NCBI RefSeq assembly: GCF_014651675.1
Contig: NZ_BMXI01000006.1
Coordinates: forward strand, 186,001-250,000
Source of the DNA: Roseibacillus persicicus
GTDB lineage: Bacteria; Verrucomicrobiota; Verrucomicrobiia; Verrucomicrobiales; Akkermansiaceae
Direction of reading: 5' to 3'
DNA: 64,000 nucleotides
The notes beneath the pieces are model-generated. The model ran no database searches. It worked only from the letters and a program-made list of their open reading frames with translations, and was not told where the DNA came from. Of the stretch, positions 58,196-62,684 are shown one piece after another. A program made the translations under genes and the position numbers. Position 1 is the first letter of the stretch. The number at the start of each line of letters is the position of its first letter.

Positions 58196-60106
58196 CTATT
58201 CGGAATCCTTAATCTCAAGCTTGTAGAAGGCCTTCGGAGAGGGTGGGGCGGTGTCGGTGATGGTATAGATGCTCTCGACAGGGTCAAAGTCCGAACTGTT
58301 CCCAGCTTCTTCGTCCACCACGGTTGCGCCATCGAAGGTGAAGATGGAAACGAAGTCATTCAAATCGGTGGAACGGCTGACCACCCAAGCTTCGCCCTCG
58401 GCAATTTCTCTATCGTTGGTGAAGGAGAGGACGGCGCTGCCATCTGCTGCGATCCCAGTGAAACTCAAAACCAGGTCACCACTGGCGAGATCGTAGCTGG
58501 CGGTGAATTCGACTGCTCCAAGGTCGACCGTGGAGTCGGCTACGCGAGGATAGCCACGGGCATCGATGGGGAGGGCTTCCGAAGTGTCGGAGTCGTTATC
58601 CAAGTCTTGGCTGTCGGCCGGGAGACCGCCATTGTCACCAGCATTCTCGGCGACGCCTCCTTGCAGAATGAGCAGGGTGGATACGGGACCACCATTGTCT
58701 GCCAAAGTTCCGGTCACGATTCCATTGGTCTCCGAAGTGGTCGCGAAGACGTTGGCGGCATCGGTTTCGATGATTTGATCGCCGGGGAGGGTGAGACCTA
58801 TGGCTGAGCTAAAGAGATTGGGCGAACCGAGCACCAAGGCTCTGGAGCCATTGTGGGAAAGATCGGTGCTGCCGGTCGAAGCGTTGTTGAAAGCGACGAT
58901 TGAGTTGCCGACATTGAGACCGGTCGAGGCTGCATAAACTCCTCCGCCCCGGTTGGCCGCCGAGTTGGCGGTTACCGAACAGCTTTGCACATGGAGGTTG
59001 TTCGTGCCCCGACTGTAGATGCCTCCTCCGGAAGCTTGCGTGGAATTGCCGATGATTGTGCAGTTGGTGAGAACGGCTTCCGTGCAACTGTAGGCCGCGA
59101 TTCCGCTTCCGGCGTTGCTGACGTTGTTAGAAATGGTTGAACTGCTAACCGCAATAAAATCACTGTAGGAACTGGAAATGGCGCCTCCAAAGAAGGAAGA
59201 GCTGTTGTCGACGAAGGTGCTGTTTTCGATCAGAAGCTCTCCTGTAGAGTTGCTGAGAAGACCCCCGGCAATTCCCCGATTGCGAGTGGTGCTGGTGGCA
59301 GAATTTCCCGAGAGGAGGCTGTTCTCGATGCTCACCAAGTCCAAACTATCAGTCGCAATTCCTCCTCCGCTGGTGACAATATTCTGCGTGCTGCTCGTGG
59401 TGTTTCCTGAGACTTCGCAGTTGGAGAGAATCAGTTGGGAACCATCGTTTCTCGTGCCATCGGCGAAGATTCCGCCCCCTCGACCGCTGGCAGAATTGTC
59501 GCTAATTGAGCAATTGGTGAGGGTCAACTCCGACCGTTCGGAGTTAATGGCACCTCCGTTGGCAGAGGATACGTTGTTAGAAATATCACAGTTGGTCAGG
59601 GTCAGAATCGACTGTTCGACCTCAAGGGCTCCTCCCTTGATGCTATCGCCATCTATCAAGTTCAAGTTGGACAGCGAGACGGTGGAAAGGGGGATGTAGA
59701 AATGACGTGTCTGGTTGTCTCCTGAGATCGTAATCCGTTCTTCGGGTCCATTGATGGCGAGGTTTTCGCTAATGATGATTTCTCCCTGCGTCAGGGTTAA
59801 GGTCCCGACCAGTTCGGGTGCGAAGGTGATGGTGTCGGCCTCGGTCGTCGCGTTGGCTAGTAGGATCGCTTCGCGAAGAGTTGCGCCATCGGCATCGACG
59901 TCGGATAAAGTATCGACGGTGAAGTTCGCGGCTTGACCTGCCGCTGGAATCATCACTGCCGCAGTCGAAAGAGCCAATCCACCCCGTTGATGAAACTCCT
60001 TAATTGCCCGGTCCCTGATCCAGAGGAAGAAGGACTGCCTCCGCTGTCGCCCCGCCGATTGATTGATAGAAGGAGAGCGCCAATGAGGTGTGGAATGCTT
60101 ATTCAC
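58196..60106 (-). CDS. exported CSLREA-type beta-helix protein
   Basis: A 636-residue exported protein. The start is GTG at 60106; a long N-terminal part precedes the hydrophobic leader (GLALSTAAVMIPAAGQAA), so the true start may be later. The CSLREA domain is clear: FTVDTLSDVDADGATLREAI. Right-handed parallel beta-helix repeats follow (GGALEVEQSILTLTNCDISN, GGAINSERSELTLTNCSISD, GGGIFADGT, GGGIATDSLD), like chlamydial polymorphic membrane protein repeats. After about residue 500 a DSQDLDNDSDTSEALPIDARG segment and a beta domain close it. These proteins are usually surface-exposed; this one has no autotransporter barrel. Function unknown. Confidence 0.8.
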   Translation of the reverse strand: MNKHSTPHWRSPSINQSAGRQRRQSFFLWIRDRAIKEFHQRGGLALSTAAVMIPAAGQAANFTVDTLSDVDADGATLREAILLANATTEADTITFAPELVGTLTLTQGEIIISENLAINGPEERITISGDNQTRHFYIPLSTVSLSNLNLIDGDSIKGGALEVEQSILTLTNCDISNNVSSANGGAINSERSELTLTNCSISDNSASGRGGGIFADGTRNDGSQLILSNCEVSGNTTSSTQNIVTSGGGIATDSLDLVSIENSLLSGNSATSTTRNRGIAGGLLSNSTGELLIENSTFVDNSSSFFGGAISSSYSDFIAVSSSTISNNVSNAGSGIAAYSCTEAVLTNCTIIGNSTQASGGGIYSRGTNNLHVQSCSVTANSAANRGGGVYAASTGLNVGNSIVAFNNASTGSTDLSHNGSRALVLGSPNLFSSAIGLTLPGDQIIETDAANVFATTSETNGIVTGTLADNGGPVSTLLILQGGVAENAGDNGGLPADSQDLDNDSDTSEALPIDARGYPRVADSTVDLGAVEFTASYDLASGDLVLSFTGIAADGSAVLSFTNDREIAEGEAWVVSRSTDLNDFVSIFTFDGATVVDEEAGNSSDFDPVESIYTITDTAPPSPKAFYKLEIKDSE

Positions 60107-60263: not shown

Positions 60264-62684
60264 TCAGCGGGCTTCGAGGAGCTCAAGGCGTTCCTGAAGA
60301 TCGCTCAGATTTTCCTGCACCTCATCGATGAGGTCGCGCACCGCTTGGATATCATCTTCATCGAGGTCGTCCTTCTTTGTGGGAGCGACTTTCTGCAAGA
60401 ACGGAGCGAGCTCCTCTAGCGGAAGGGCGTAAGTCTTCACCCGGCCGGCGCGAGCCACGTTGATGCCGAGACATTGTCCCTGCAGGTTCAGGATAGGTCC
60501 ACCGCATTGTTCGGGAGAGAGAGGCATGTCGTGTTGCAGCACCAGAGGATAGCCAGAAACCTTTTTCGAGAGCGGGCCCGACATCTCATTCATCTTGATA
60601 AAGGCGGCGCTGTGGGACCCGGCGGGACGCGAGCCGAGGGGGAATTGAAGAGTCTTCTTCACTCCCTCGCGCTCGAGTTCGATTGTGATTTCGTCGCCTC
60701 CCGAAAAGCCCTGGATTCTGCGCGCAAAGTTGCGGGGATCGCCCGCAGGTTTCCCGTTGAGAGTGAGGAGATGATCCCCGGGAAGGATTCCTCCCTTTTC
60801 GGCAGCCCCTTCCTTCACTAGCGAGTCAACGGTGAGCTTGCCATCGATGAGACCCGAACGCAGGCCAAGAAGTCCCATGCCCTTGAGGGGGCGGGGGAGG
60901 ACGCTGACAACTCCGATGCCCATCGGCTCCCCAGTGTGAGATGGGGTGAAAAGAAGTTGTCCCAGATCGAAAGAGGCGGTCGGACTCCATACGATGGGGG
61001 ACAGATCGTTGGCTTGGACCCGAAGGAGCGCGAGATTGCGGTCGGGGAAGCTTTCCATCCGTTTTCCGGGGTAGCTCTTTCCGGCGATTCTCACGGTGAA
61101 CTCGTTCTTTGTGATGTTCTCGTCACTGGTGAGAAGCCACCCATCGGAGGTGATGACGGTTGCCAACGAGACAGGGGAGTCGTCGACTAGGATTTCCGCC
61201 ACACTAGGATGTGCTTGGGCGGTGATGGGGCGCACGGTTGCGATGAGGGCGTAGTAGAAGGGATCGACGAGACGGATGCGCGGGCCTTTCTCGCCCACGA
61301 GGGCTCTCTCTTCTTTGCTCAATTTAGCCATGCGTTCGCGCACCCGCCGGGCCAGACCTTTGTTCCCGCCCAGTTCTCCCAATTGAGCAGGGCTCAGTTC
61401 GAGGACCTTGCCGGTGCGCATGGTTTCCTCAAAGAGCTCGAGTGCGGAGGGTGGTCCGGGCGTGGTGTCTTCCTGTGGTGCGCGCACGCGGGCATTGGAT
61501 CCGGTGCGCTCGGCGATACGCGCGAGAACCCGGTCCATTCCTCCAAACTTCTTCAATTGTTCTTCGGTCAGCTTGAGCTGCTTTTTTCCCGCCCCGCCAT
61601 TGATGTAGTCGTCGAGAAAGAGGTCAAGGGCCGCAGTCTGCTCCTGCTCTTTGTTCTTGTTGGGTTCCTTCGGGTTGTTCGGTTGCTTGGTGGCCTCTGC
61701 GTCTCTTTGCTTGAGGAACCGATTGAGACTGACGGTTCGGACATTGAGGTCCTTGGATTCGCCATTGCGATCCACGGTGAGAACAAACTTTTCACCGATG
61801 CCCAATCCGCGCATGAGCTCTAACAACTTTTCTTGCGAAGTGACTTTCTCGCCGTCAAAGGCGGTGACAACGTCGCCCTTTCGGACGCCCGCTTTGGCTG
61901 CTGGTGAACCCGGTGCCACGGACTCAATCTTGACCAGGTCTTCCTCCGTGAGCACGCGAAAGCTCACGGCCGGACGGTCGCGACGCGAGGATGGGCGTTC
62001 TCCAATCTTTTTGCCCGCCAGCATTTCCTCCCAATGGTCATGAAAGACCGAAATCGGGACATGGCTGTTGTCGATCAAGCTCGCTCCGATGTTGGCGTTG
62101 ATGCCGATGAGTTGCCCTTTAATGTTGAAAAGGGGGCCACCGGAATCACCGCTCACCACCGCGCAGTCGGTCTCGATAAAGTCGCCTACGGAAAGGATGC
62201 GGCCCAATCGCACGGGGGGAGTTCGCTTGACGTCGAATCCGCCAGGGTGACCGAGCGCAAGGCACCATTGGTTAAAGGAGTAGTCGTCGCTTTCTGCCAA
62301 ATCGACATGAGGATACTCGCCTTTCTTTGTGATGCGCACCATCGCGGCATCACGTGTGTATTCTCCACCGAGGACTTCTGCTGGAAGGCGGGTGCCATCG
62401 GGCAGAATGACGGTGAGCTCTCCTGGCATGGCGTTGACGACATGGGCTGCGGTGAGAACGAGGCCGTCTTCACTCACAATCACTCCGCTGCCTGCGCCCC
62501 CACCGACGAGCCCCACCGTGGCATCAGCACAAGTTTGGGTAACCGCGATGAGCTCTTGGTTGAGTCTTTCGAGATCGGAGAACTTTTGAGGTAAGGGAGA
62601 CTCTTCGATTTCGGCCGCTAAGGAGCCTGCCTGCATTCCAATGGCGCAGAGTGCGAGCACTCCCTTCGAGACAATTGAATTCAT
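60264..62684 (-). CDS. HtrA-like protein with two trypsin-like domains and two PDZ domains
   Basis: An exported 806-residue protein, start ATG 62684 (leader MNSIVSKGVLALCAIGMQAGSLAA). Domain 1 (about 30-220) is an active trypsin-like protease: VLTAAHVV (His81), YTRDAAMV (Asp112) and SGDSGGPL (Ser181). PDZ1 is about 240-320. Two copies of a 45-residue motif follow (351-395 LFLDDY...QLKKFGG; 412-458 LFEETM...QLGELGG). Domain 2 (about 490-765) has the same layout but with Glu522 for His (LLTSDENI), Asp548 kept and Cys727 for Ser (PEQCGGPI), and a PDZ domain (about 590-685) inserted between the Asp strand and that loop. A coiled-coil tail closes it. Domain 2 is likely inactive. Confidence 0.88.
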   Translation of the reverse strand: MNSIVSKGVLALCAIGMQAGSLAAEIEESPLPQKFSDLERLNQELIAVTQTCADATVGLVGGGAGSGVIVSEDGLVLTAAHVVNAMPGELTVILPDGTRLPAEVLGGEYTRDAAMVRITKKGEYPHVDLAESDDYSFNQWCLALGHPGGFDVKRTPPVRLGRILSVGDFIETDCAVVSGDSGGPLFNIKGQLIGINANIGASLIDNSHVPISVFHDHWEEMLAGKKIGERPSSRRDRPAVSFRVLTEEDLVKIESVAPGSPAAKAGVRKGDVVTAFDGEKVTSQEKLLELMRGLGIGEKFVLTVDRNGESKDLNVRTVSLNRFLKQRDAEATKQPNNPKEPNKNKEQEQTAALDLFLDDYINGGAGKKQLKLTEEQLKKFGGMDRVLARIAERTGSNARVRAPQEDTTPGPPSALELFEETMRTGKVLELSPAQLGELGGNKGLARRVRERMAKLSKEERALVGEKGPRIRLVDPFYYALIATVRPITAQAHPSVAEILVDDSPVSLATVITSDGWLLTSDENITKNEFTVRIAGKSYPGKRMESFPDRNLALLRVQANDLSPIVWSPTASFDLGQLLFTPSHTGEPMGIGVVSVLPRPLKGMGLLGLRSGLIDGKLTVDSLVKEGAAEKGGILPGDHLLTLNGKPAGDPRNFARRIQGFSGGDEITIELEREGVKKTLQFPLGSRPAGSHSAAFIKMNEMSGPLSKKVSGYPLVLQHDMPLSPEQCGGPILNLQGQCLGINVARAGRVKTYALPLEELAPFLQKVAPTKKDDLDEDDIQAVRDLIDEVQENLSDLQERLELLEAR

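Follow-up and report, generated by a model that had tools for sequence, protein, structure and literature searches.

An HtrA-type protease fused to a predicted dead HtrA-type domain with a PDZ domain in loop L3 in Roseibacillus persicicus

The gene and its domains

The window analysed here is a stretch of 64,000 nucleotides of Roseibacillus persicicus (NZ_BMXI01000006.1, positions 186,001 to 250,000). The ORF listing and translation gave an intact frame of 806 codons with an ATG start on the minus strand (60264-62684), and Pfam detected Trypsin_2 and PDZ stretches in both halves of the 806-aa protein (Table 1). The protein is predicted to be exported, judging from its signal-like N terminus, and a hydrophobic 12-mer ahead of the domain was found in 72 of the 85 separate (unfused) members of the family described below versus 15 of 142 in the control. 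Between the two halves lies a linker (61299-61622, minus strand) for which a Pfam search returned zero matches. Its helical-looking repeat unit of ~45 aa follows the pattern LxLxxxxLxxxGG...R...ER, and similar consensus segments are seen in fused homologues. Scanning for promoters and terminators yielded no signals above chance. The neighbouring gene on the same strand (58196-60106) encodes a predicted secreted protein of 636 aa, whose repeats (TLTNCxISxN) resemble a parallel beta-helix.

Domain 1 has the trypsin-like fold and the His-Asp-Ser triad of HtrA/S1C proteases (Trypsin_2; H81, D112, S181), as well as their C-terminal PDZ domain (PDZ_2). The latter, an ordinary PDZ1, had gone unmentioned in the initial annotation. 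With 219 bits against the NCBIfam Do-family model TIGR02037, which has a cut-off of 416 bits, domain 1 is an HtrA relative that falls under the curated Do subfamily threshold. From its intact triad it is predicted to be a working HtrA-type stress protease.

Table 1. Features of the gene, in window coordinates
Feature	Position	Strand	Basis
Whole gene: HtrA protease, PDZ1, linker and pseudo-HtrA with internal PDZ2, 806 aa	60264..62684	-	ORF, translation, Pfam
Signal-peptide-like hydrophobic N terminus, residues 1-24, MNSIVSKGVLALCAIGMQAGSLAA	62613..62684	-	sequence reading
Domain 1, HtrA protease, about 48-236, triad H81 D112 S181	61977..62543	-	Trypsin_2 at 65-195 (Pfam)
PDZ1, residues 243-316, ordinary position behind protease 1	61737..61958	-	PDZ_2 (Pfam)
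Linker, about 355-462, two-fold helical-looking repeat	61299..61622	-	sequence reading
Domain 2, N-terminal part of the pseudo-protease, 478-601	60882..61253	-	hhalign vs protease 1: 98.9%, E 2e-17; model pLDDT 93.3
E522, catalytic His position	61119..61121	-	profile alignment
N550, catalytic Asp position	61035..61037	-	profile alignment
R598, equivalent of DegP Arg187, L3 relay residue	60891..60893	-	alignment, Arg in 88/92
PDZ2, about 602-686, inserted into loop L3 of the pseudo-protease	60627..60881	-	hhalign vs PDZ1: 99.9%, E 4.7e-32; PDZ_2
Domain 2, C-terminal part, 687-768, conserved SxRRxGFPxVxQHD and GGP loop	60381..60626	-	hhalign vs protease 1: 97.6%, E 4.5e-12
Q717, equivalent of DegP Gln200	60534..60536	-	alignment, Gln in 89/92
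C727, catalytic Ser position	60504..60506	-	profile alignment
Charged C-terminal helix, coiled-coil-like, 776-806	60267..60359	-	sequence; model helix, residues 311-324 of the modelled stretch

The second protease domain and its homologues

Searched alone against Pfam, domain 2 matched Trypsin_2 (3.4e-10) and PDZ_2 (9.7e-9). Profile-profile alignment of the two halves paired E522 with H81, N550 with D112 and C727 with S181, so that none of the residues of the HtrA/S1C triad is left in domain 2. The initial annotation had described a dead second protease in which His and Ser were replaced by Glu522 and Cys727, and both replacements are borne out. It had, however, treated the catalytic Asp as kept. 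The residue on its 'Asp strand', D548, does not stand at the catalytic position, and since N550 is the residue aligned to D112, the loss extends to the Asp as well.

The second PDZ domain is located between the strand GVVSVLPR and the segment PLVLQHD, at the site of loop L3 in HtrA proteins. In alignments to solved HtrA structures the N-terminal part of domain 2 reaches the GIVSALNK strand and the C-terminal part starts at about DegP chain position 193; by these limits, PDZ2 takes the place of loop L3. It lies within the protease core, as had been proposed, and not behind the protease as in HtrA/S1C proteins. An AlphaFold2 model of domain 2, calculated from a 92-row alignment, reached a pLDDT of 93.3 and a pTM of 0.82 and was HtrA-like, and a Foldseek search with this model matched HtrA proteins (best E 1.5e-13). 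The TM-scores of about 0.28-0.46 in the hits listed are low, as expected if no solved structure has the domain order of domain 2. hhalign, AlphaFold2 and Foldseek agreed on an HtrA fold. Sequence, profile comparison and structure prediction all support the reading of domain 2 as a predicted dead protease whose core contains a PDZ domain. Viral relatives were also sought by fold, which returned generic trypsin folds with low TM only.

Homologues of domain 2 were gathered from relatives, from the phylum and from named species, giving 92 non-redundant aligned members; the counts are based on mechanical ORFs and MAFFT alignments, and several of the named-species numbers come from MAGs. The PDZ insertion into L3 is common to all 92 members, and a feature that recurs in this way is neither a chance event nor an assembly error. 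At the position of the catalytic His, Ser is found in 79 members, Thr in seven, Glu in two, Ala in two, Val in one and Asn in one, and His in none. The Asp position is occupied by Asp in 91 members, the single Asn being that of the copy in the window, and the Ser position by Cys (61), Val (12), Met (7), Ile (5), Ala (4), Thr (2) and Ser (1). In place of TAAH the family carries the motif TKxSE, with Lys in 90 of the 92 members. The copy in the window departs from the family consensus at S520, N523 and N550. Because the near-invariant Lys 520 and Asp 550 are both lost, its domain 2 may have degenerated further. A disulphide bond between C727 and C738 was considered and rejected, as the two cysteines showed no co-occurrence: 18 members have both, 43 have C727 alone and 17 have C738 alone.

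The phylum search returned two classes of matches, namely full-length ones (E about 1e-64 or better) in the order of the window and in two genomes of family f44, and generic HtrA/PDZ matches elsewhere (E about 1e-19 to 1e-22 or weaker). The family was found in 26 of the 30 genera sampled in the order of the window and in 78 of its 114 near-complete genomes, with 1-3 copies each. Among the matches listed, the 80 named loci that were kept belong to Verrucomicrobiota or Planctomycetota, including Gemmata, Zavarzinella, Blastopirellula, Singulisphaera, Thermoguttaceae and Phycisphaerales, with the exception of a single MAG from Kiritimatiellia and a record whose title reads just 'Bacterium'. As far as these listed matches go, the family is likely confined to these groups, chiefly Verrucomicrobiota and Planctomycetota. 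Ten near-complete genomes of the genus of the Akkermansia muciniphila type strain (g3: G005, G106, G123, G159, G191, G238, G245, G248, G326, G341) are without a member, which points to a loss or to a clade-specific occurrence within this genus. The protein of one record labelled as an A. muciniphila MAG (L120) groups with another family of the order (f3), and the record is probably mislabelled. A literature search, with subscription papers and preprints outside its scope, yielded no description of the domain 2 family, nor is the family described in the passages on planctomycete PDZ proteins found by term in PMC6411480.

Linkage to an active HtrA and the proposed role

At 139 of 142 loci the dead domain has an HtrA protease upstream of it, either in the same chain (54) or as the product of the directly preceding gene on the same strand (85). 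For the loci fetched by queries with domain 2 only, the count was 106 of 109. The triad is intact in every active partner in which the columns are present (His 138/138, Asp and Ser 140/140). Regarding the three exceptions, locus L143 ends at a contig edge, L151 has broken-frame HtrA fragments upstream, likewise at a contig edge, and L114 alone is truly without a nearby HtrA. On a tree obtained by a quick search with the PDZ columns included, the fused and separate states were exchanged at least 4-5 times, and the protein of the window falls into a fused clade of 18 rows (SH-aLRT 100). Across this widespread family, fusion is one of the arrangements; more commonly, the dead protein is the product of the next gene in an operon-like pair. 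No further conserved operon partner beyond the pair was found among the neighbours of the loci. Of the neighbour clusters, the largest, with 58 loci, lies entirely on the opposite strand and was interpreted as antisense shadow ORFs of domain 1; the remaining clusters are local synteny.

The genome of R. persicicus itself carries further copies. A second fused copy of 630 aa (C20, L166:1363-3255, minus strand) has a linker of about 21 aa only, and GLP takes the place of GGP at the end of its dead domain. A third copy (C17, L167 / L005:1252-3352, plus strand) consists of two overlapping genes and has Thr at the nucleophile position. Two active/dead pairs are present in the A. muciniphila type strain (ATCC BAA-835), with a 4-nt gene overlap in both. 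In the second of them the active HtrA (L164:2226-2990, minus strand), overlapped by the pseudo-HtrA gene, is without a PDZ domain. The same holds, judged by Pfam or profile coverage, for the active partners in Thermoguttaceae and at locus L038, so that in these three lineages the PDZ domain of the dead subunit is the only one detected. In the Thermoguttaceae (gut planctomycetes; L132, L133, L135, L148), the protease, lacking PDZ1, is joined almost directly to the pseudo-protease and is preceded by an N-terminal extension of ~240-310 aa.

In DegP, DegS and HtrA1, loop L3 conveys the activating signal between subunits, and Arg187 in L3, Gln200 and Thr176 (DegP numbers) form the inter-subunit relay (PMC5666011). 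The equivalents of Arg187 and Gln200 are near-invariant in the dead domains (Table 1), and the Gln position is variable in the active partners. The latter have a short L3: in 138 of 140 rows, the G161 and D173 columns are separated by 11-14 residues, whereas about 19-23 lie between them in two ordinary HtrA proteins of the same genome, whose L3 is long and DegP-like. This distribution suggests a division of labour, with sensing and relaying in the dead subunit and cutting in the live one. The active partners have other conserved arginines, R159 in 140/140 and R162 in 132/140, and may still possess a functional L3 relay. A compact fusion encoded in this genome gave a model (612 residues, pLDDT 84, pTM 0.74) that is compatible with packing of the domains but is no proof of it.

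We consider it rather probable that domain 2 is a regulatory pseudo-subunit dedicated to one active HtrA, that it senses ligands through PDZ2 and that it controls the protease in a manner similar to MamO/MamE. The pseudo-HtrA module would serve its protease as part of one chain in the window and, in most relatives, as the product of an adjacent gene. Within the periplasm, the dead and active protease domains would assemble, probably into a mixed HtrA-type trimer or hexamer, at a ratio that the fusion would set to 1:1. PDZ2 may bind the ends of peptides or misfolded proteins. Being a portion of L3, it could signal its state of ligand binding directly, via R598 and Q717, to the adjacent active subunit and there reach the LD loop and the active site. 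That subunit, with its own L3 shortened, would be left to do the cutting. Regulation by domain 2 may mean activation or inhibition. The initial annotation had suggested that a fused pseudo-protease could regulate domain 1 or bind substrate, and this putative role fits the near-absolute linkage, the recurrent fusion, the kept relay residues and the PDZ-less partners. Adjacent genes can also result from a shared substrate or from co-expression. More tentatively, the pairs may form a two-subunit class of HtrA proteases in Verrucomicrobiota and Planctomycetota, in which the dead subunit is an L3-PDZ sensor with a relay and the active one, short in L3 and sometimes PDZ-less, is switchable only by its pseudo-partner.

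PDZ domains bind C-terminal or unfolded segments, and the pseudo-protease might be a substrate receptor or adaptor that hands clients to domain 1 by means of PDZ2 and the vacated cleft, with no allostery involved. PDZ2 would be the sole such site in the three lineages with PDZ-less partners, and recurrent fusion suits simple tethering. We nevertheless regard this explanation as rather unlikely, given that a tether needs neither a PDZ site fixed in L3 in 92/92 members nor near-invariant residues at R598 and Q717. A further alternative is that the pseudo-protease acts on its own in the periplasm, as a chaperone or a structural protein, and happens to share a transcript with HtrA. A protease-independent function has been reported for HtrA2 in the abstract of PMC10439076, and many family members are separate, predicted exported proteins, but recurring fusion and the near-absolute adjacency to an active HtrA make this improbable.

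Two other explanations are very unlikely. The nucleophile position is most often Cys (61/92), with a near-invariant Lys and Asp nearby, as might be expected of an active cysteine protease or another non-classical protease. This reading was rejected because 31 of the 92 members have V, M, I, A, T or S instead and none has His; the copy in the window is also without the Lys and the Asp. Equally far-fetched appears a decaying, functionless duplicate, a pseudogene in the making. The deviations of the copy in the window at S520, N523 and N550 would agree with decay, but the open frame of 806 codons, the high-confidence fold and the conservation across two phyla do not, nor does the presence of 1-3 copies in 78 of the 114 near-complete genomes.

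Signalling from PDZ domains to the active site via L3 has been studied mainly in symmetric homotrimers, in which sensor and catalyst are one chain. A PDZ domain inside L3 of a dead subunit, together with a short-L3 active partner, would represent a natural split of sensing from cutting, which could make the relay testable subunit by subunit. The family is frequent in Verrucomicrobiales and also occurs in Planctomycetota. Since the type strain of A. muciniphila has two pairs, the quality control of envelope proteins in this gut commensal, already an object of study, may rely on the family. A generic annotation as trypsin-like peptidase or PDZ protein would miss the predicted inactivity of the family proteins.

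Comparison with known systems

Domain 1 with PDZ1 is an HtrA protease like DegP, DegQ and DegS (Do/HtrA, MEROPS S1C), and domain 2 shares their fold and keeps the Arg187 and Gln200 equivalents. It differs from them by the missing triad, the PDZ domain inside L3 and the presence of two protease domains per chain. Arabidopsis Deg5, an HtrA protease without a PDZ domain (PMC3640471), resembles in this respect the PDZ-less active partner in A. muciniphila. Deg5 and Deg8, the latter with one PDZ domain, are ordinary single protease domains, and no PDZ insertion is described for them.

A dead HtrA-type protease paired with an active HtrA, as found here, is known from the magnetosome of Magnetospirillum, where the dead HtrA MamO is required for MamE-dependent proteolysis (PMC4794232). 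The Ser of MamO is replaced ahead of the GGP loop as in domain 2, and MamO is the best PDB sequence match of the C-terminal part of domain 2 (5hma, E 7.9e-6). In contrast to domain 2, the resolved protease domain of MamO (5hm9/5hma, ~190 residues) has no PDZ domain within. MamO is further characterised by a TauE-like transporter domain, metal binding and its location in the magnetosome island. Pfam gave no match to a TauE-like transporter domain in the 806 aa, and the neighbouring genes, judged by eye, do not form a magnetosome island. The MamO profile NF040961 scored 74 bits against a cut-off of 800, and its best stretch, 48-225, corresponds to domain 1.

In magnetotactic delta- and gammaproteobacteria, inactive paralogues of MamE indicate that pairs of active and inactive HtrA proteins evolved repeatedly (PMC4794232). 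Those pairs are duplications within single clades, with no PDZ insertion reported in the text consulted, whereas a single family spans two phyla here. MamO is the closest functional parallel to domain 2 and, as the two occur in different phyla, their likeness is probably convergent.
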